From a virus, in the IMG/VR virus record IMGVR_UViG_3300025896_000120, positions 1-31,663 of that record: a DNA stretch of 31,663 nucleotides. One strand, written 5' to 3'. Both the position numbers and the translations under genes were made by a program. Of the stretch, positions 1-31,663 are shown piece after piece. The notes beneath the pieces were generated by a model. It did not search any database. It had not been told where the DNA came from and saw only the letters and a list, made by a program, of their open reading frames with translations. Within the stretch, counting starts at the first letter, position 1, and each line of letters starts with the position of its first letter.

Positions 1-986
1 AAATTCTCTGGGGTTGCAACTTCACCTTTAAGATTGATACCAATACCAGTTTCACCTTGAATACCCTGAGGACCTTGTGGGCCAGTATCGCCAGTTATAC
101 CTTGAATGCCCTGTTCACCCTGTGGGCCCTGCGGTCCTTGTGGTCCTTGATCACCAGTTGCACCAGTTGCACCTGTATCTCCTTGTGGGCCCTGCGGTCC
201 TTGAAAGCCCTGTTCACCTTGAATGCCTTGTGGGCCCTGTGGGCCTTCAATACCTTGAGGTCCGGTAGCACCAGTTGCGCCAGTGTCACCAGTATCCCCT
301 TTAATGCCCTGTTCACCTTGAATGCCTTGTGGGCCTTGAGGTCCTTGAGGTCCTGTATCTTTTGCAGTCCACGATAAATTACCTGAACCATTTGTTTGCA
401 ATACATATGAATTGGATCCACCTGCAACATGCAAGTTAGCAACCGCAATTGCGATATTTGCAAAGGTACCTTCAACATTAGCAGCATTCAAATGTGTAAG
501 TTGTGAACCATCACCTGATAAGTTACCACTTACGCTGATGCCATTTGGACCTGAACTGATTGTTGAATTACCAAGATAAATTGTATTGCCACTTAAATAC
601 AAATCTTTCCAGCGATGAGTTGCACTACCAAGATTGTAAACAAGATTTCCTGTTGGAATCATGTTGCTTGATATATTGCCATTCAAATAAGTTGGCATAT
701 AAGCAGCAACGTTAGCATTGCCATATTGTTCAGGTAAACCAGTTAACTGACTGCCGTTACCAATAAAATAGTTTGCAGTAATGTTACCACTAACTGACAT
801 TGCGTTTGTAGTTGCAATTGATATATTACCAGTAGCATTAGAAACTTGAATATTATTGCCAGCAGTAATATTCTGAACACCAGTTGTACTGACTGCTCTT
901 GAAACTTCCAATGAGATATTACTTTTCGCAGTGATGCTAACTTCAATGGATTTATTCTCTGAATTTATTGTTATTTGTTGAGCCAT
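1..986 (-). CDS. Collagen-like tail fibre, N-terminal part (runs off the left edge)
   Basis: This is the start of a receptor-binding tail fibre. It begins [13 protein letters not shown] at 986 and stays open to base 1. The first 210 or so residues are Asn/Gly/Thr-rich beta-structured repeats of the type found in phage fibre shafts, including a [13 protein letters not shown] module near residue 200. From about residue 211 (base 356 downward) it becomes a collagen-like Gly-X-Y run (GPQGPQG, GIQGEQG, GDTGATG) and then a GEVATPENL segment. The reading frame continues exactly into the minus-strand fibre at 31537-30253, so a circular join would give one protein of about 752 residues. It lies 1 bp after a BppU-like gene. 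The role as a fibre is certain at family level; the receptor is unknown. Confidence 0.85.
13..138. repeat. Terminal direct repeat, left copy (126 bp)
   Basis: Bases 13-138 are identical to 31538-31663. The flanking bases 1-12 match 31526-31537 except at positions 6 and 12, both synonymous third-codon positions (Glu and Thr). A perfect overlap of this length between contig ends is typical of a de Bruijn graph assembly of a circular molecule. The repeat lies in a collagen-like coding region, so a true internal repeat is also possible. Confidence 0.9.
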
Positions 987-8048: not shown

Positions 8049-8501
8049 TTATTCTCCTTGATACCAAGTTTCTTCTATCTTCTCATATCCAAATCTTGAA
8101 TAATCAAGATCAGGACTATTTGTCATTTTACTTATTGTCCAAAAGGAAAGCATTCCTCTATTATGTAGACTTCTTGCATGATCACTATATTCCTTAATCA
8201 AACGATAGCCTGCTGATGAACCTCTATGTTCTGGTTCAACCCAATAACTTACTTCTTTCAATACACGAATTGATTCATCCCATATATTTAAGTCAATTAC
8301 TCCCAGCAACATTCCAATTGGTTGATTGTCTTTAACAGCAATCATGGCTAAGCCTGCACCAGCGATAATATGACTAACAACTTCAAGTAAACGTTCTCGT
8401 GTACATGAACTAAATCTTTCAACTGGTGTTGCATCTTTATAATGCATTAACATTTCAACTAAATGATTAATGTCATGCTTGGTTGCTTGTCTAATTTCCA
8501 A
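8049..8501 (-). CDS. GNAT-family N-acetyltransferase
   Basis: Protein of 150 aa with the GNAT fold. Residues 1-20 (MEIRQATKHDINHLVEM) are the usual first strand and helix. Motif A lies at 84-104, with EVSYWVEPEHRG followed by R93-G-S-S-A-G98, matching the Q/R-x-x-G-x-G/A acetyl-CoA pyrophosphate loop. The C-terminal FGYEKIEETWYQGE is a typical terminal strand. It is encoded 1 bp after one minor tail gene and 5 bp before the tail-tip gene, where lambda encodes gpK and gpI. The substrate is unknown. Acetylation of a tail protein or of a host target are both possible. Confidence 0.85.
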   Translation of the reverse strand: MEIRQATKHDINHLVEMLMHYKDATPVERFSSCTRERLLEVVSHIIAGAGLAMIAVKDNQPIGMLLGVIDLNIWDESIRVLKEVSYWVEPEHRGSSAGYRLIKEYSDHARSLHNRGMLSFWTISKMTNSPDLDYSRFGYEKIEETWYQGE

Positions 8502-16933: not shown

Positions 16934-17368
16934 TTACTCTGGTTGAAGAGTTGCCCTCAATTGCCAATGCCACTTACCATGCTGGCTTTGTCTATCTGCA
17001 ATAAAGTTTGCAATTCCATTTTCTCTTTCTTTTGTTGCTTCATCAAACAAATCTTTTAAAAATTTAAGGATCTTGTCATTGTCTTCCAACAATTCTTTAA
17101 CCATTAAATTTAATTTTGGTATCTTGGTTTGTTCAGTCAAAATACTCAATTCTGCAAAACGACTTAATGATCCTGGAGCAAATTCATCTAATGTTCTGAT
17201 GTGTTCTGCAATAGTATCATGTGCGCTATATGTGTCTGTGTAAATCTCACCAAAGAACTCGTGAAATTGACTGAACAACATTCCTTCTGTGTTCCAGTGA
17301 AAGGCTTGCGCCTTTGTGGTAAAAACTATATTGGTTCCTAAATATTTTTTTAATGAATCTGCTAACAT
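16934..17368 (-). CDS. Dps-like ferritin (DNA-protecting, iron-binding)
   Basis: A 144-aa protein when started at MLADSLKKYLG, chosen because an AGGA site lies 7 nt upstream; an in-frame ATG at 17392 would overlap the portal gene and add 8 residues. It has the Dps signature: H24-W-N-T-E-G, H36, D51, E55, with the usual spacings of 12, 15 and 19 residues. The Asp expected four residues after H36 is Gly40, followed by Glu41. Four of the five ferroxidase residues are therefore present. IAEHIRTLDEFAPGS also matches the family. A Lys-rich DNA-binding tail like that of E. coli Dps is absent. The gene starts 1 bp after the portal stop. Confidence 0.9.
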   Translation of the reverse strand: MLADSLKKYLGTNIVFTTKAQAFHWNTEGMLFSQFHEFFGEIYTDTYSAHDTIAEHIRTLDEFAPGSLSRFAELSILTEQTKIPKLNLMVKELLEDNDKILKFLKDLFDEATKERENGIANFIADRQSQHGKWHWQLRATLQPE

Positions 17369-17369
17369 G

Positions 17370-18932
17370 TTATCTTCCTGATGCTTGTCCAACCAACTGA
17401 TCTGCCACTGGATTGTAACTTGACTGACCAGTATAAGTTATACCTGTTCCTAAGCCCGAATAAAGTTCTGTTTCTTCCATCTCATCGGTTTCTTGAGTTC
17501 CTTTAATTGGAACTTGAATACCTAAATCGCGTGTATAACTTCCCATGTGTTCTTCTGATACAATATCTTGATACTCTTGTGGTAACGTTGGCATTGTCGC
17601 GGTTACATATTCATTTACTTCTTCAGGTGGGCAAAGCAATGCAACTAACTCTTTAACAATCAATCCTTGAATGATTGGATTATCACCAGCAAGAGTTTTT
17701 GCATGGTTCAATAATGCCAAACGATAATCGGTATCGCTTGCTTCATAATCAGTATCATAATGCACTTCACCAGCCCAACGCATATCCATAAATCTTGCAG
17801 CAAAGGTCCAAATTTGTTCTTCACAAATTTCCATTAATCTGGCTTTTGCTCTTGCAAGTTTATGAACATTACGGCGTTCTTCAATCATTGATACACCAGA
17901 AACTGCTGTAACAACATTCTTGCGTAAGCCACCAAAGCCAAGAAGTTTTTCTAACTGTTCAAGGATATCTTGTTGTTTGTCAATAATCATTTGAACATCT
18001 TGAGTATCAATTTTGATTGATTCAATTTGTCCTTGGGTTGCTCTTACAATTGCACCTGCATGTGCTGGCACTTTGATACCTGGATCAGCACGAATGATTG
18101 TTTTTGCAAATTGAATTGATTGGTATGCTTCGCACTCTAATTTATAATGCTCACGTTGTGCATCACTTGCTGCATCAATATCACTGATACCAACATCAGT
18201 TCTACGTGGATCTCTGCGACCATATGCAATGAAACCAGGGATAGCCATACCAGGAGGAAAGGTACCTTTGTCTAATAATTCTGCAGGACCTTCTGAGTTG
18301 TTGTCTTTTATAACTTTCCAACTTTCCCAACTTGATGGAGTTGTTGAGTCACCTAAGCGATATATTTTAAAATATACACAATCATGTTCTTCAAACTCTC
18401 TAACCTTAACATACTTTAATAATTGACGACCACCATAGAATTCAAAGTTCCAATCTAACACATCCATTGGACTTACAACGCACACATATGGACGACCAAG
18501 ATTACCTTCTTCTTGTTGAGGCATATCAACAAATACCCAAGCATAACCAAATATACTTGATACTTGACCAACTTGTTCCATAACACCAGTTAAACTGTTG
18601 TTGGTCATATTTGCATCTAATTGCAAAAGTTCAGCCCAGTCAGTTAGTTCTTCATCAACTGGAACACCCTGCGGAGTTGCAAATCTTAAGTCACGTTTTA
18701 TGCCCGGTTCAAATACATAATTGTTTAATGTATCAACGATATAACGGCAAATAGGCTGTGCAACAGTATGAGTGATTACATCAATATGAATCTTTTCATC
18801 TTCGCTTGGGCGCTTCTTACGTGCTTGTCTTTTGAATGCTGTTCCACCAAGATATGCCAACTGATAGTCGGCCATTGTTTGGTAGATCGCAGTGTAGATT
18901 GCGCTGCGATGTAGTAAATCTTTGTTCCTCAT
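17370..18932 (-). CDS. Portal protein
   Basis: A 520-aa protein, MRNKDLLHRSAIYTAIYQTM to NPVADQLVGQASGR. Features include an N-terminal YTAIYQTMADYQLAYLGGTA, a central GFIAYGRRDPRRTDVGISDI with helix-rich AASDAQREHYKLECEAY, a tunnel-loop-like region GGLRKNVVTAVSGVSMIEER, and a C-terminal ARFMDMRWAGEVHYDTDYEA. These patterns occur in siphovirus portals of about 450-550 residues. It lies between the terminase/HNH genes and the capsid genes. It forms the dodecameric DNA channel. An AAGGAA site precedes the start. Confidence 0.88.
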   Translation of the reverse strand: MRNKDLLHRSAIYTAIYQTMADYQLAYLGGTAFKRQARKKRPSEDEKIHIDVITHTVAQPICRYIVDTLNNYVFEPGIKRDLRFATPQGVPVDEELTDWAELLQLDANMTNNSLTGVMEQVGQVSSIFGYAWVFVDMPQQEEGNLGRPYVCVVSPMDVLDWNFEFYGGRQLLKYVKVREFEEHDCVYFKIYRLGDSTTPSSWESWKVIKDNNSEGPAELLDKGTFPPGMAIPGFIAYGRRDPRRTDVGISDIDAASDAQREHYKLECEAYQSIQFAKTIIRADPGIKVPAHAGAIVRATQGQIESIKIDTQDVQMIIDKQQDILEQLEKLLGFGGLRKNVVTAVSGVSMIEERRNVHKLARAKARLMEICEEQIWTFAARFMDMRWAGEVHYDTDYEASDTDYRLALLNHAKTLAGDNPIIQGLIVKELVALLCPPEEVNEYVTATMPTLPQEYQDIVSEEHMGSYTRDLGIQVPIKGTQETDEMEETELYSGLGTGITYTGQSSYNPVADQLVGQASGR

Positions 18933-19022: not shown

Positions 19023-19445
19023 TTAAACCTTTTGGCTACATTTATCATTATGAAACCTTCCGAGGATACCTGGAATACCATGATAACCACAGTGAGGACA
19101 CGTTTGAAAATATTTAGGGTTTTTACTAACAACACCAGCACTGCCTTTTTTGCTCATGCTTTCCCCTTTATTCTTATAAGTTCCTGCAACTAAATGATCA
19201 GGATTAACACAATCGTAATTGTTACACACATGATGAACAACTTTGCCCTCTATATCTTGACCAATAAGTTTTAATGCAACACGATGGGCTGTTTGCATTT
19301 TGCCTTGGTATCTAAAGAATCCAAAGCCAATGTTATTCTTTGCTGCTGTCCACAAATAGCAATCAGTTACTGGGTCATGTTTAATATGACTGTCAAAGTA
19401 AGATTGATAATCTGCTTCTGTTGCATTTCTTGATCGTGTTGCCAT
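19023..19445 (-). CDS. HNH endonuclease with C-terminal zinc knuckle
   Basis: Protein of 140 aa. The HNH core is AHRVALKL (53-60), then H71-H72-V-C-N-N-Y-D-C79 and N81-P-D-H84-L, the common phage HNH3-type pattern. A C-terminal metal motif C116-x2-C119-x12-H132-x3-C136 follows. It sits between the large terminase and portal genes. HNH proteins next to TerL are known to assist cohesive-end cleavage in HK97-like phages, but the family also includes homing endonucleases; both are possible here. A near-perfect hairpin separates it from the TerL gene, and an AGGA site precedes its start. Confidence 0.88.
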   Translation of the reverse strand: MATRSRNATEADYQSYFDSHIKHDPVTDCYLWTAAKNNIGFGFFRYQGKMQTAHRVALKLIGQDIEGKVVHHVCNNYDCVNPDHLVAGTYKNKGESMSKKGSAGVVSKNPKYFQTCPHCGYHGIPGILGRFHNDKCSQKV

Positions 19446-19454
19446 AATGTTCCT

Positions 19455-19496
19455 AAGTTATTTTATTTATCATTAAAGATAAATGATGAATAACTT
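19455..19496 (-). other. Intercistronic inverted repeat between TerL and HNH genes
   Basis: Arms 19455-19471 and 19478-19496 can pair over 17 bp with a 2-nt bulge and a 6-nt loop. The structure includes the first base of the TerL stop and ends a few nucleotides before the HNH ribosome-binding site. It is AT-rich and has no T-run, so it is more likely an mRNA stability or translation-control element than a terminator. Confidence 0.6.
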
Positions 19497-20926
19497 TACC
19501 AAGTTTGGTAATCATTTTCTTGTTCACCGTCTGTGGTTAATAATTCTTCCCAAGTTGGACCACCAGCATAAAGAGGACTAACTGGTAAATGTTCGCCACC
19601 AGGCTTCTTATAAAATCTTGTATCACTGGTAACATAATCTTGTTCAAGCCCAGTATCATGTCTAATAGGAAACAAGTGATGAATCAAATATCGTAAACTA
19701 TCTCCCAAACCATCTATATGAGCATAGGCTTGTTCAGTATATTTGACTAACTTTTTACGAGTACCATCTTCAAAATGATAGGTTGATAATGATTCTAATA
19801 ATCGTTCATCATCTGGATTAATAATCAGTCTACCTTGATTGATAAAAGCATTTGAGGTATTGTCTGTATCTGCTATCAATGGATTACTATTACGATTGTT
19901 TATGATTGCAAAGCCATACTTTTCAAGAATGGTTCTATCAGTAATACCAAACGCACTGGTAGTATCTCTGTTTACTTGAGTACCTGACATATCAATTACA
20001 CTATTGATTCTTCTTCTTGGAAAGTCTTGTCTGATTGCTTGTGCGATACCTTCAGTTGAACAATCATTGATGGCATATGATTTTAATATTTCAATCTCAC
20101 CATTAGGTTTATAGGGGTTCTTTACTTGAGCAACCACAGCGCACATTACTCGCTTGTTAAAGTCATGCCCTGAATATAAGTCGCCACCAAGATCAACAAC
20201 AGGTTTGCAAAACTTATGTTTATCCCATGCATAAAAGAACTGATCGCTAATCGTTTCAAAACTGCACATGTAATCACTGGCAAACTTCATTGGACTTAAT
20301 ATCTTTTTCTGATCAAGAATATACTTTAAGTTACCTGCTCGCATTTGCTCATAGTTATAATGCCTAACTATAAACTGATCTGGCAGTTTGTTCGCTGCTT
20401 TGAACAATGAATATAAAGGTCCATTACCATGTGGGGTTGATATAACAATCAAACGACCTGCACTATTTGGATCATTAACTGATGGGCGAAGTCTATTGGT
20501 TATCTCTTGTAATGAATCTTCAGTATACAAACTTGCTTCGTCTGCAATCCAAATTGAAGCATTCATACCACGAAGATTTTCTCTTTGTTCTGCACTTTTG
20601 CAACGGATAAAGATATCATTGGGGAACCTAATGGTCATGTTAGAATTATTAATATCCTTATCGGCAATATTAAAGTATTCTTTACAAGTGCGCTTGAGTG
20701 GTTCCCATATTAATGTTGAGATCATGCCCATGGTTGGAGCAGAGTAAACGATATCACGATTCATATGATACTTGGGATCACTTGCAAATATTGGAAGTGC
20801 AAGTGCTGCAAGAAATGTTTTACCTGATCCTACTGGAACAATGTTGATTGAATGTTTGCGAGTGTTTAACCAATCATTAAAGATTGTAGTTTGCTCACCA
20901 TACAAATTGATTGGATAAGTTTTCAT
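19496..20926 (-). CDS. Terminase large subunit
   Basis: A 476-aa packaging motor. The ATPase domain has Walker A VPVGSGKT (G33-x-G-K-T37), Walker B IWIADEA with D129-E130, and a coupling motif ISTP (163-165). The nuclease domain has acidic residues in DLYSGHDF (about 245), VIDMSG (about 310) and HIDGLGDSLRYL (about 405-420). Length and motif order are normal for the family. It starts immediately after the stop of the fused small-subunit gene. It pumps DNA through the portal and cuts the genome during packaging. The headful versus cos mechanism cannot be decided by eye. Confidence 0.95.
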   Translation of the reverse strand: MKTYPINLYGEQTTIFNDWLNTRKHSINIVPVGSGKTFLAALALPIFASDPKYHMNRDIVYSAPTMGMISTLIWEPLKRTCKEYFNIADKDINNSNMTIRFPNDIFIRCKSAEQRENLRGMNASIWIADEASLYTEDSLQEITNRLRPSVNDPNSAGRLIVISTPHGNGPLYSLFKAANKLPDQFIVRHYNYEQMRAGNLKYILDQKKILSPMKFASDYMCSFETISDQFFYAWDKHKFCKPVVDLGGDLYSGHDFNKRVMCAVVAQVKNPYKPNGEIEILKSYAINDCSTEGIAQAIRQDFPRRRINSVIDMSGTQVNRDTTSAFGITDRTILEKYGFAIINNRNSNPLIADTDNTSNAFINQGRLIINPDDERLLESLSTYHFEDGTRKKLVKYTEQAYAHIDGLGDSLRYLIHHLFPIRHDTGLEQDYVTSDTRFYKKPGGEHLPVSPLYAGGPTWEELLTTDGEQENDYQTW

Positions 20927-21583
20927 TTATAATAGAGTGTTTGACTTCCACTCTGGAAGTTCTACTGGGGTAAACACCAATTGAACTTGCATTGTTTCAC
21001 CGTTGCTGGTAACGTCTAATGCTTGTTTATCTGCAATAACTTTACTTAGGATCATGTTCTGATATTTTTGAATAACATAAAGATCACCTGATAAGCGGGC
21101 TCTATGATAATCTTCAGCAATACCCTGTTCAAATGGAACATCAACTTGAGCGATTGCATCTAATAAACTTGTGGCTGATAACTTTTGGGTTGCTCCAAGT
21201 TTGCGCCCTGAATTGGCTCGTTTTCCCCCACGACCCTTCTTTGGCGTTTGATCAATTTGATTATTTTTCATAGGTGTTTCCATAGTTCTTTTCCTACTTT
21301 GTTTTGGTGGTCCATCTGCATTACTTCTATTGAAACTCATTATGTTATTTTTTGCATTTGATTCCATTAACAATCGGGATTCAAGTTTGCGCATATCTTT
21401 GCTTTCACCCGTTTCAATAATTGAGCGTTCCCATTCTTCTGGGTTGGCAAGTATCATGGGCTTTACTATTTCACTTGAACAAATGTATCCATCATTGATA
21501 TGACAATCCTTAGCGGTACGTGAACCAATGTACCACATACCAGTTGGTTTATGAATCCATTTGTAAACAAATGCTTGGGTCAT
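20927..21583 (-). CDS. GIY-YIG nuclease domain fused to small terminase-like subunit
   Basis: A 218-aa two-part protein. Residues 1-80 match phage GIY-YIG nucleases: F5-V-Y7-K-W (GIY equivalent), W17-Y18-I-G20 (YIG equivalent), R22, DGYICSSEIVKPMI, and E68 in RKLESRLLMES with N79/N80 nearby. Residues of about 113-218 look like a small terminase: a basic KGRGGKRANSGRKLG entry, an ATQKLSATSLLDAIA helix, FEQGIAEDYHRARLSGDLYV, and QKYQNMILSKVIADK. It is followed with no gap by the large terminase gene, the usual TerS position. The linker at 85-112 is basic and polar. Both domains appear intact. Confidence 0.8.
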   Translation of the reverse strand: MTQAFVYKWIHKPTGMWYIGSRTAKDCHINDGYICSSEIVKPMILANPEEWERSIIETGESKDMRKLESRLLMESNAKNNIMSFNRSNADGPPKQSRKRTMETPMKNNQIDQTPKKGRGGKRANSGRKLGATQKLSATSLLDAIAQVDVPFEQGIAEDYHRARLSGDLYVIQKYQNMILSKVIADKQALDVTSNGETMQVQLVFTPVELPEWKSNTLL

Positions 21584-21936
21584 GCAAATACTTCTACATA
21601 GTCTGCAGGATTATCTTCTGGATCTAACCCATCCCACAATGTATTATCTGCTAATCTGCGAAACTTTTTTGCACCTGTATTCTTAAGCAAATGTTGATTG
21701 TCTTTGCCCCATTGCAATTTCAATTGCTTGTATCTATTATCACCAAGCATAATCTTGATTTGAGTTGCAGCATCTGTTTCTGACCAGTTGGCATCCCATT
21801 TTGAGTCTTTGATCTTTTCAATAAACTCCAAGCAAATATCTAATTCCATTTCGGAAAGATACTTGGAAAACTCAACAATCATTCTGTCTAATGCACGACA
21901 ATGGCTGGTGTTTGGACGATCAATTAATTGTCGCAT
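21580..21936 (-). CDS. Unrecognised protein upstream of the terminase genes
   Basis: Protein of 118 aa, MRQLIDRPNTSHCRALDRMI to DPADYVEVFA-like acidic end. It is mixed helical, with MELDICLEFIEKIKDSKWDA and YKQLKLQWGKDNQHLLKN, and a basic patch AKKFRRLAD. It overlaps the gene before it by 17 bp and the terminase fusion by 4 bp (ATGA), so it is translationally coupled to packaging genes. I do not recognise the family. A role in DNA recognition or packaging is plausible only from context. Confidence 0.65.
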   Translation of the reverse strand: MRQLIDRPNTSHCRALDRMIVEFSKYLSEMELDICLEFIEKIKDSKWDANWSETDAATQIKIMLGDNRYKQLKLQWGKDNQHLLKNTGAKKFRRLADNTLWDGLDPEDNPADYVEVFA

Positions 21937-22165
21937 TTTTATACTCCACTAAATTTGCTTCTTGAACTAGGGCTCCCAATATTTCATACACTGCTTTTAA
22001 GCCCATGAGTTTTTGATCTCTACCCATTTCTTCATCTTGTGGTAATTCAAGATCCATTAAATGAATGATAGAGTTTTTGATATCATTCATTAATGGTTCA
22101 AGACTACACCATGTGATTGAGTCTGGTCCTTTAACCAGTTTGTAATTTGTTTGTGTTGGATTCAT
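21920..22165 (-). CDS. Small helical protein of unknown function
   Basis: Protein of 81 aa with a predicted long helix (SLEPLMNDIKNSIIHLMDLEL and GLKAVYEILGALVQEANLVE). It begins at an ATGA overlap with the small protein gene at 22162-22314 and ends inside the next gene. No family recognised. The run of coupled small genes leading into the terminase suggests one translational unit. Confidence 0.65.
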   Translation of the reverse strand: MNPTQTNYKLVKGPDSITWCSLEPLMNDIKNSIIHLMDLELPQDEEMGRDQKLMGLKAVYEILGALVQEANLVEYKNATIN

Positions 22166-27419: not shown

Positions 27420-29906
27420 TTATCCTGTAACTGTCCAGTTCTTTATTCTGGCTGCATGAGTATTTAGTTTTCTAAATTGAACCGATAATCCGCTGCCTGA
27501 AGTTCCTGGAAGTTTTAATGTTACATTATTTGTACTTACTGCGGTAACATAATTTGCATAAGTTATTGTCCCGCTTGAACTTGCAGTCAATGTGATTGGT
27601 GCACCACCCGGAGTCAATGATAATTTAAAATAGCCACCTGATCTTGAGTTAACTGAATAATAAGTTTGGTTAACAGTTAATCCTGGGTTAACAGTAAATG
27701 CTGTAAATCCAAACATGATACCATCGCCCGGCTCAATCGCATTGAATGATGGAACTTGAAATTCACTAGTTGAACTTAAAAAGTTTGCAGTAAGCGAATT
27801 AGTACCATTACCATATGCATACATACCAACTAATACTCCAGTAGTACTTGATGCATCAACACTATTAATACTAATAGTTGCTGCTGAAACAGTAACTGCA
27901 GTATCTGCACCAGGATTACTAGAAATAGTTAATGTTTGTGTAGTTGCTGCAACTCCAAGGTTCGCACAAATTGTTTCTAATGCATCTTTGTTTAAAAGGT
28001 TAGTTGCATAACTGTGAGTTAATTTTAATCCAGTAATACCAACTGCACTTAATGAAACCGCACCTGAAGTAAACGCTGCCGGTGAAGTTGTTACATTTGA
28101 ACAATTATATGTAGGTATTGAAATTAAAGCAGGGCAAGTTGTAAATAATGTTGTAATATTTGTTGCCTTTGAAGTATCTAATCCAGGTGCTTTAATTAAT
28201 GATGTACAACCATTAAACATATTTGTAAAATTTGTCATGTTTGCAGTATTAAGATCAGGCACTGTTATAATTTTTGACGTATTAAACATGCTTGTAGCCT
28301 GTGTGGCTTTTGACATATCAAATGCTGGAATAGTACTTAAGTTTTGAGTACTAGCAAACATTGAATTAAAGTTAACTGAATTGCTTGTATTATATAATGG
28401 AACTGAAGTTAATGCAGTACAACCATTAAATGCACTAATAAAAGTAGTTACATTTGCAGTATCCATAGTTGGTGCAACTTTTAAATTTACACAATTTGAA
28501 AAGGTACTATCTAAACCACTATTTTTAGTAGTTGTTAAATTACCAACAGTCTCAAGAGAAGTGCAACCACTTAAAAAACCAGTTAAAAAGTTTACATTTT
28601 CTAAATTCAAATCCGGAACTGTTTTTAATGAAATACAACCTGAAAAAGTTGTAACGGCTGCATTAACTTTTGAAAAATTAAAATTTGGAATTTTAGTTAA
28701 TGATGTACAATTTAAAAACATATTTGTAATAGTAACAACATTGGAAGTATATACCATATCAAATAATGGAACGGTTTCCAATGCTCTGCATCCACTAAAC
28801 ATACTTGTAAAAGTAGCATTGGTTTTAGTATTATATAATGGAACTGATTTTAAACTTACACAACCTGAAAACATACTAGACATATCATTAGCATTAATTG
28901 TATCTAAATATGGTGCATTAACCAAACTTGAACAACCATTAAAAAATGAATTGAATGAAGTACTACCACCTAAATTTAAGATTTTAATTTGGCTTGCATC
29001 AACTAATTTCGTGCAAGTATTGTAAGCAAGTGCTAATGAACTGGCATTTCTAAAAGTAATTGCAGGAGCAATTGCCATATTATAGCATTGTGCAAACATG
29101 TTTGTTCCACTATCACATTGAGTTGGTATTGTTGGAAATTGTGATAAACTATAACAGTTTTGAAACATAGTACTTCCACCAAATGAACTTGCACTTGTTG
29201 GTGGTAAACTTGGCAGATAAACTAAACTAAAGCAACTTGCAAACATACCATTTGCAGCATTCCAATTATCAGGTCCAGCAAGAACCGGAACACTTTTTAA
29301 TGCAGGCAAAGTCATAAACATATAATTGAAAAAACCTGTAGAATTTGCAGCAGTTTTTATAATTGATGCTTGCTCTAATAGTGAGAATGAAATAACTGGA
29401 CTTGAACCCGCAATAGTATAAGTTGTTAAATTTGGAGAACCTACTGCAATATCTAACCATTTTGCTGTATATGCTGGAAGTGCAGGAACGTTAATAAACT
29501 TTTTATTTAAATCAACTACTGTTAACAATCCCGCTCCAACAGGAGTTACAGTAACAATAACTTGTTTGTAACCACGGGTTGAGATAGTTGAATTTGAAAT
29601 TGTTGAATAGGTATAATTATATTGTGCAGTTGCTCCAGTTGCATAAGTTTGTGGTGCAGTACCATCGCCCCAATCAACCTGAAAACTGCCTGTAGGAACA
29701 GTTGCACTCAATGCTACATAATTACTAGCATTATCATGAACTGCATGTAATCCAACAAACTTTTGATCAGATGTTGAAATGGTTGGCAATGTTAGCCAAT
29801 CACTTGGTCTTGTATAAGTGTTTGATGGGCTAGTTAAACTAAATGAACGTGAAGGAGGAATATCCTTTGATCCAATAGTTTTTTGACTTGTATATGCAAC
29901 AGTCAT
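27420..29906 (-). CDS. BspA-like leucine-rich-repeat adhesion protein
   Basis: A large 828-aa protein. Residues of about 60-130 carry a PKD-like strand set with FQVDWGDG (W79-G-D-G82). Residues of about 190-640 hold about 17 repeats of 23-24 residues with consensus M-F-x-x-C-x-x-L-x-x-x-P-x-x-x-T/S (for example SMFSGCVSLKSVPLYNT, NMFNGCTSLIKAPGLDT), the BspA/DUF285-type leucine-rich repeat. The C-terminal 180 residues are beta-rich. BspA-type repeats occur in bacterial and protozoan surface adhesins; in a phage tail cluster it is most likely a receptor-binding or decoration protein. Its start overlaps the preceding stop as TAATG. Confidence 0.85.
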   Translation of the reverse strand: MTVAYTSQKTIGSKDIPPSRSFSLTSPSNTYTRPSDWLTLPTISTSDQKFVGLHAVHDNASNYVALSATVPTGSFQVDWGDGTAPQTYATGATAQYNYTYSTISNSTISTRGYKQVIVTVTPVGAGLLTVVDLNKKFINVPALPAYTAKWLDIAVGSPNLTTYTIAGSSPVISFSLLEQASIIKTAANSTGFFNYMFMTLPALKSVPVLAGPDNWNAANGMFASCFSLVYLPSLPPTSASSFGGSTMFQNCYSLSQFPTIPTQCDSGTNMFAQCYNMAIAPAITFRNASSLALAYNTCTKLVDASQIKILNLGGSTSFNSFFNGCSSLVNAPYLDTINANDMSSMFSGCVSLKSVPLYNTKTNATFTSMFSGCRALETVPLFDMVYTSNVVTITNMFLNCTSLTKIPNFNFSKVNAAVTTFSGCISLKTVPDLNLENVNFLTGFLSGCTSLETVGNLTTTKNSGLDSTFSNCVNLKVAPTMDTANVTTFISAFNGCTALTSVPLYNTSNSVNFNSMFASTQNLSTIPAFDMSKATQATSMFNTSKIITVPDLNTANMTNFTNMFNGCTSLIKAPGLDTSKATNITTLFTTCPALISIPTYNCSNVTTSPAAFTSGAVSLSAVGITGLKLTHSYATNLLNKDALETICANLGVAATTQTLTISSNPGADTAVTVSAATISINSVDASSTTGVLVGMYAYGNGTNSLTANFLSSTSEFQVPSFNAIEPGDGIMFGFTAFTVNPGLTVNQTYYSVNSRSGGYFKLSLTPGGAPITLTASSSGTITYANYVTAVSTNNVTLKLPGTSGSGLSVQFRKLNTHAARIKNWTVTG

Positions 29907-30252: not shown

Positions 30253-31663
30253 TTACATTCCTGCAAGCAAGAATGGATTGAATGTTTCACCTGCTCCACC
30301 ACCGCCACCTGATTGTGCTACCCAAGAAAGATTTCCTGAGCCATCTGTTTGTAATACATAACTTGAACTACCACCAGCAATCTTGATTGTACTTACACTA
30401 CCTAATGATAAGTTTGAACCATCAAATGTAACATTACTTATCCCACCAAAGGCACCTGAATTGTTAAATTGTAGTTGAGTATTAGCACCACCTGGGGTAC
30501 CTGAACCACCGCCACCAGCAGCAGCAAATACGCCATTGCCATAAAGAACTTGGCTTGCATTACCATTTAAATTCACAGTTGCAATATTGCCTAAGCCAAC
30601 AACATTACCAACTGCTACTGCATTTGCTGTTGTAGCAAAATTAGCAAGATTAACTGTACCACTGATATTTGCAGCATTTACTGAATAAGCAGTTCCTGCA
30701 GTGATTGCATAAGTTGCATTTGCTACAGTACCACTTACATTTGCACCCGTTACTGCATTTGCTGTTGTGGCAAATGTTGCAAGTCCTACTGCACCTGATA
30801 CATTTGAACCTGATACTGAGAATGCAGTACCAGCAAAGTTTGCATAGTTAGCATCATAAGCAGGTAAGTTAATCCATTGAGTATTAAAATTAGTTGAATC
30901 TACTTTACTAAGAACTTGACCAGCAGTACCACCTGCAGCAACACCTGGACCAGTTGCACCAGTTGCACCAGTTGCACCAGTTGCACCTGTAGCACCATCA
31001 GCGCCTTTGGCTGCCATTTTAGTCCAATAGGTTGTATTAGTTGGTAAATTTGAAATACTTGCAACTTTATTTACATAACTCTCACCAGAATAAACAACCA
31101 CATCATATGGAGAATAGAAATAATAATTAACCCAATCACCTAAAAATCTAAAACCTTGTCCAGCACTACCAGTAGCACCCGTTGCTCCTGTAGCACCTGT
31201 AGCACCCGTCGCTCCTTGAATACCTTGAATACCTCGTTCACCTTGAATACCTTGAATGCCTTGTGAGCCTTGAGGACCAGTTGCACCTGTAGCACCAGTT
31301 GGTCCAGTGTCACCAGTAATACCCTGAATACCTTGTGGTCCCTGTGCGCCAGTTGCGCCAGTATCTCCTTGTGGACCTTGTGCGCCAGTTGCGCCAGTAT
31401 CTCCTTGTGGTCCCTGTGGACCTACAATTTGTCCAACATCAATCCACTGAGTACTATCCCAAGTATATAAATTACCAGTGCTTGTAACAACATAACTATC
31501 ACCTTGAACATTACCAGTTGTTGGTAAATTTTCTGGAGTTGCAACTTCACCTTTAAGATTGATACCAATACCAGTTTCACCTTGAATACCCTGAGGACCT
31601 TGTGGGCCAGTATCGCCAGTTATACCTTGAATGCCCTGTTCACCCTGTGGGCCCTGCGGTCCT
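30253..31663 (-). CDS. Collagen-like tail fibre, C-terminal part (enters from the right edge)
   Basis: Minus-strand frame open from 31663 to a stop at 30253; an internal Met at 31101 is not the real start. From the edge it contains the [10 protein letters not shown] domain, Gly-X-Y repeats (about 31430-31160), a carbohydrate-binding-like module ([21 protein letters not shown], about 31140-31070), a second collagen run GATGATG, and repeated [17 protein letters not shown] shaft units. It ends with a [18 protein letters not shown] and [13 protein letters not shown] module and the tip [11 protein letters not shown]. It joins in frame to the fibre beginning at 986 if the molecule is circular. Confidence 0.85.
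31538..31663. repeat. Terminal direct repeat, right copy (126 bp)
   Basis: Exact match to bases 13-138. The offset is 31,525 bp, which is the implied circular genome length. Confidence 0.9.

Follow-up and report, generated by a model that had tools for sequence, protein, structure and literature searches.

The window analysed here, a stretch of 31,663 nucleotides from a 31.7-kb virus record, carries a tailed-phage structural module on the minus strand (Table 1). At its packaging locus, a single ORF (ATG 21581-21583, stop 20927-20929, minus strand) joins an N-terminal GIY-YIG nuclease domain, through a basic linker, to a domain that probably corresponds to the small terminase subunit, TerS. 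The gene of the large subunit, TerL, adjoins the stop codon of this fused gene with zero gap, and directly behind it lies an HNH endonuclease gene that was kept in 57 of 58 related loci. The profile of this HNH family, which includes a zinc-ribbon-like segment at its C-terminal end, matches many of the GIY-YIG proteins studied here in their tails. On the upstream side, the stop codon of the conserved gene U118 and the start codon of the fused gene share bases (ATGA), and a second conserved gene, U81, follows. Elsewhere in the window, a Dps/ferritin-like protein, recognised by reading, adjoins the portal gene (16934-17392 (-)), and a GNAT-acetyltransferase-like ORF is located inside the tail module (8049-8501 (-)). 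The ORF at 27420-29906 (-) encodes 828 aa with repeated MFxxCxSLxxxP units resembling BspA-like repeats, the one at 30253-31101 (-) contains a collagen-like GATGATG stretch and is probably fibre-related, and low-complexity ORFs are also present at 95-487 (-).

Table 1. Features of the packaging locus, with their positions in the window.
Feature	Position	Strand	Support or remark
Portal protein	17370..18932	-	phrog_145, E 2e-25
HNH endonuclease gene behind TerL	19023..19445	-	Pfam HNH_3; phrog_3593, E 7e-19
TerL, large terminase	19496..20926	-	phrog_2, E 1.7e-32; Pfam Terminase_6N
Fused gene, GIY-YIG nuclease domain and small-terminase-like domain	20927..21583	-	single open frame, 218 aa
TerS-family domain, residues 117-218	20930..21235	-	family HMM, 140 bits
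Basic linker, residues 92-116	21236..21310	-	low confidence, pLDDT about 50
Internal ATG (Met101)	21281..21283	-	invariant in the three fused genes
GIY-YIG nuclease domain, residues 1-91	21311..21583	-	phrog_314; AlphaFold2 model and 1ln0; invariant residues
U118, conserved 118-aa gene upstream of the fused gene	21580..21936	-	
U81, conserved 81-aa gene, upstream	21920..22165	-	

The first-pass annotation had described one intact gene with a GIY-YIG half and a C-terminal TerS-family half, and this description was borne out. A search for the same fusion in other phages recovered it, in frame and as a single ORF, in L001 (100% identity), which is probably the same virus sampled again, in L002 (88%) and in L003 (70%). 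Since the frame is open in these three further contigs, two of which come from clearly different viruses, a frameshift or assembly artefact that would hide two separate genes was rejected. The carriers of the fusion are a small set of uncultured phages. The length of the linker differs among the fused relatives. A scan of genome contigs found no such fusion, the full 218-aa protein had no match in sequence searches of the PDB and Pfam, and no published GIY-YIG/TerS fusion was found in a literature search covering the accessible text of papers available without subscription.

Residues 1-91 matched the PHROG homing endonuclease family phrog_314 with an E value of 6e-12. The Pfam family SegE_GIY-YIG (PF19835) scored 14.5 bits against a gathering score of 25 and, being below threshold, points to the nearest subfamily only; its best E value among relatives was 0.0036. 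Matches of the GIY profile to PDB sequences were at chance level. An AlphaFold2 model of the fused protein, built from a 49-row alignment, gave block pLDDT values of 86-95 over residues 1-80, arranged in the order strand-strand-helix-strand-helix. The nearest solved structure was I-TevI, 1ln0 (Z 7.5, rmsd 3.0, 81 residues; Foldseek, VIA-align), and the remaining nearest structures were likewise all GIY-YIG nucleases. The structure prediction proposed as a check in the earlier reading therefore confirmed the fold of the nuclease half, a SegE/I-TevI-type GIY-YIG domain; it did not confirm a TerS fold for the other half.

The two parts of the GIY...YIG motif lie at the expected spacing of about 10 residues (V6-Y7 and Y18-I19-G20), the first motif reading FVY and not GIY. 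The hallmark residues Y7, Y18, G20, R22 and E68, all pointed out previously, were invariant in eight relatives. The conserved asparagine had been placed at N79/80, and these were the wrong residues: N85, invariant in the same eight relatives, fits the I-TevI-type asparagine better. In I-TevI numbering the catalytic arginine is found at G+8, whereas the candidate residue R22, despite its invariance, stands at G+2.

The C-terminal half belongs to a family whose ORF directly preceded TerL in each of the 53 distinct loci compared (related loci with >700 nt of upstream sequence), abutting or overlapping TerL in most of them. It was the only significant copy of the family in the window, and the family was likewise single-copy in seven further contigs, including that of L003. 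The family shares a basic GGxRPGxGRKxGS segment and a conserved C-terminal FxFPTxELPDW; in the fused gene, these are accompanied by three predicted helices, the motifs reading GRGGKR..GRK and FxxxELPxW. The match to the PHROG 'terminase small subunit' family phrog_18735 was weak (best E 0.004, with 13 of 49 members at E <=0.1). The model of this half consisted of three helices with a mean pLDDT of 68 and no fold match, and no typical HTH was detected in it. Profile comparison with the PDB, the fold search, NCBIfam and Pfam gave no informative match, nor did tblastn of family members and of the family consensus against 50,697 phages. The annotated TerS of Vibrio phage 1.082.O did not align to the TerS profile, nor did the ORFs that precede TerL in three other phages. 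A search near terS for repeats that might be candidate binding sites of TerS yielded only short imperfect ones in the upstream genes.

The earlier assignment of a small-terminase-like half before TerL thus stood as regards position, while its fold went unconfirmed, and we identify this half as TerS mainly by position. It might instead be another conserved protein of the packaging locus, the true TerS being, for example, U118. This would fit the outcome that no confident fold and no PDB or Pfam match was obtained for the C-terminal half, and U118 and U81 are likewise conserved upstream; the PHROG scan was uninformative as to U118. However, the direct adjacency to TerL throughout the loci is a feature of the C-half family, whereas in the case of U118 cargo genes often intervene; moreover, the weak PHROG TerS matches were confined to this family, and the half contains the basic segment, in the form GGARPGAGRK. 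We regard a different identity of the C-terminal half as quite improbable.

GIY-YIG genes of the same family were found in several arrangements at the terS locus of relatives, fused to terS, on its 5' side, on its 3' side or absent, although the relatives were otherwise collinear. A separate gene was located 5' of terS, often overlapping it, in L004, L005, L035, L093 and L097, and between terS and TerL in L006, L009/L010, L096 and L142; in most close relatives, TerS was unfused and its vicinity was free of GIY genes. The fused GIY domains and four of the five free-standing 5'-adjacent ones formed one clade (support 99/92), with the 3'-adjacent ones apart. The tails of 17 of 55 GIY proteins matched the zinc-ribbon-bearing HNH profile above the inclusion threshold; the fused ones end in TerS.

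A different kind of tail was observed in L004, where the free-standing GIY-YIG gene (L004:213-743 (+)) ends in a truncated TerS-like segment and overlaps, in another frame, a complete terS (L004:712-1101 (+)). The similarity of this tail to TerS reached 38 bits (E 4e-12; hhalign E 1e-10). It is closest to the TerS of L038 (36%) and is devoid of the C-terminal FPxxELxDW segment. Together with the fused genes, it indicates that GIY and TerS have been joined in two different forms. Comparable TerS-like relics were sought in the tails of L035, L093, L097 and L005, and were not significant beyond the GRK-G motif. Glycosyltransferase-like and DNA-methyltransferase-like cargo also flanks terS in some relatives (L005:4080-4748, L073:2617-4050, L018:923-2068 (+)), and the presence of cargo genes on either side of terS marks the locus as an insertion hot spot.

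Both halves of the fused gene are under strong purifying selection. Between the window, L002 and L003, the GIY half gave dN/dS values of about 0.06-0.11 at nearly saturated synonymous sites, and the TerS half about 0.03 where an estimate was possible. Values this low in both halves are unlike those of a decaying passenger; the fused gene keeps under selection a nuclease domain that is presumably active.

The comparison of the window with L002 revealed a very uneven divergence. Residue identity amounted to 95% in the TerS half and 80% in the GIY half, against 62% in TerL, 57% in the HNH protein and 56% in U118. The median TerS identity at this TerL distance is 40%, and the excess of TerS over TerL identity in this pair was the largest among 1,953 locus pairs. 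At the nucleotide level, the ATG of the fused gene marks a step in identity, from about 60% to 83%, which is lost again around the TerL start. The contrast with TerL and U118 indicates that terS moved between divergent phages. The dS values differed within the gene, being about 2.1 between the GIY halves and about 0.9 between the TerS halves (with the linker tract). The GIY half is thus the older in divergence, and the recently exchanged tract corresponds to the linker and TerS, not clearly to the nuclease or the whole gene. The three fused loci were scattered over three separate places in the TerL tree. In the TerS tree, the fused halves were close but did not form one clade, the unfused TerS of L006 nesting among them (AU p 0.017), which suggests mixed histories of fusion, splitting and recombination. 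It is possible that a single fusion was followed by splitting and recombination, or that fusion occurred repeatedly.

We propose that a homing-endonuclease module settled at terS, became fused to it and acts in homing with an essential passenger, and we give this reading a probability of about 0.55. The possibility that a homing nuclease was captured and spreads together with its host gene had been raised from the first reading of the DNA, and it is now well supported by the same GIY lineage standing free beside terS in relatives, by the horizontal movement of the TerS half between phages with divergent TerL and by the purifying selection on both halves. In the proposed mechanism, the SegE/I-TevI-type GIY-YIG module of a free-standing homing endonuclease beside terS would have been joined in frame to the N-terminus of TerS, which would occupy the place of the C-terminal DNA-binding tail of such endonucleases. 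Guided by the TerS half or by the linker, the nuclease would reach DNA in terS or close to it and there cut or nick the alleles of related, co-infecting phages; the fused allele would then be copied into the cut terS by repair. The host gene being essential, loss of the nuclease would entail loss of TerS, unless recombination parted the two. We infer cleavage, the target site, the targeting by TerS and the packaging function, the last of which the TerS half would supply. Targeting through TerS is attractive because the pac site of P22 lies inside terS (PMC9611059).

A tentative extension of this proposal, by analogy with P22, is that the nuclease addresses itself: TerS, whose natural binding site may be situated within terS or close to it, would guide the GIY-YIG domain to terS alleles and so both start packaging and spread its own gene. 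If this were the case, the truncated TerS tail of L004 would represent a second, separately arisen TerS used purely for targeting.

A homing gene that brings its phage no benefit usually decays, yet the purifying selection observed here is strong, so that the nuclease may be domesticated instead of homing. The GIY domain would then make or bias the initial packaging cut, as also considered in the earlier reading, or trim ends, after the binding of TerS, which would agree with the selection on the nuclease half and with the retention of the fusion across three divergent TerL backgrounds. Precedents exist in the HK97 HNH protein, which helps terminase to cut cos (PMC10448857), and in the modulation of the TerL nuclease by TerS (PMC9611059). 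We nevertheless find a domesticated packaging nuclease doubtful: the majority of close relatives manage packaging with a TerS that is not fused and has no GIY gene in its neighbourhood, TerL and the conserved HNH gene already provide nucleases, and GIY genes appear and vanish at the terS locus. The joining could also have been accidental and near-neutral, a stop codon being lost between a 5'-adjacent homing gene and terS and the resulting N-terminal extension being tolerated. The overlapping 5'-adjacent GIY genes of L004, L035, L005 and L093 illustrate a suitable starting point, and internal initiation at Met101 could possibly bypass the nuclease half and make TerS alone. This methionine aligns with the start codon of the unfused L006 TerS, and in the window it is preceded by a fair SD: the energy of -4.7 compares with a median of -5.4 at starts and surpasses about 92% of internal ATGs in strength. 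The energy was -2.9 in L002 and -1.3 in L003, and because the SD is weak in these two, a second start yielding TerS beside the fusion is only suggestive. As the invariant active-site residues and the low dN/dS of the GIY half over a near-saturated dS also speak against mere tolerance, an accidental joining appears unlikely.

A further reading takes the fused protein as a weapon against competitors, the TerS half steering the nuclease to the packaging sites of co-infecting phages or satellites. The phage ICP1 offers a model in Odn (Gp88), in which a homing-derived GIY-YIG-superfamily domain is combined with a satellite replication-initiator domain (PMC8263062), and origin-directed nucleases have arisen repeatedly (PMC8263062, PMC10448857). 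The L004 protein, with its TerS-like tail lacking the FPxxELxDW segment beside a complete TerS, would suit such a role. The window, however, has no TerS besides the fused one, which means that the phage's own packaging site would be hit too, and we consider this function very unlikely. The resemblance to Odn resides in the joining of a homing nuclease domain to a DNA-recognition domain; the domain order is opposite, the recognition domain derives from a replication protein there and a packaging protein here, and here it continues to be a protein of the phage itself, one that is probably essential.

The homing reading is closest to the I-TevI/SegE-type endonucleases of T4-like phages, which share the N-terminal GIY-YIG domain, flexible linker and C-terminal module, residues 3-88 of the model aligning to I-TevI. 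I-TevI itself is described as nuclease, linker and DNA-binding domain in PMC10448857. The difference is that the C-terminal module is here the TerS-family protein of the phage and not a dedicated tail, so that host gene and nuclease form one ORF. Compared with phage TerS proteins, which are DNA recognition factors, the nuclease residing in TerL (PMC9611059), the C-terminal half is similarly small, basic, helical and encoded directly upstream of TerL, but it bears an N-terminal nuclease domain and no typical HTH was detected in it. The HNH packaging proteins of the HK97 gp74 type are also homing-type nucleases at a terminase locus; they differ by their nuclease fold and by being encoded by a separate gene, and the present phage group possesses, besides the fused gene, an HNH gene of its own.

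According to PMC10448857, T5orf172/GIY-like homing genes are found near terminase genes in 35% of neighbourhoods, where they are commonest, T5orf172-type genes bracket exchanged modules, and homing genes arranged in islands lie on the flanks of essential modules, terminase among them, and mobilise these. In those islands nuclease and cargo are neighbours, whereas here they are fused. The clustering of homing nucleases beside terminase genes was already known; within the literature covered, the fusion of one to TerS is what is new here. Opinions differ on whether the nucleases of terminase loci are parasites or belong to the packaging machine (PMC10448857). A nuclease placed on the sole TerS would combine both roles in one polypeptide, which makes the question testable by a single active-site mutant. 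The arrangement also suggests that the part of the targeting domain of a homing nuclease can be played by a packaging-recognition protein. Since the host gene is probably essential, such a nuclease could hardly be lost without harm, and the fusion suggests a route by which a selfish nuclease may tie itself to an essential viral gene.
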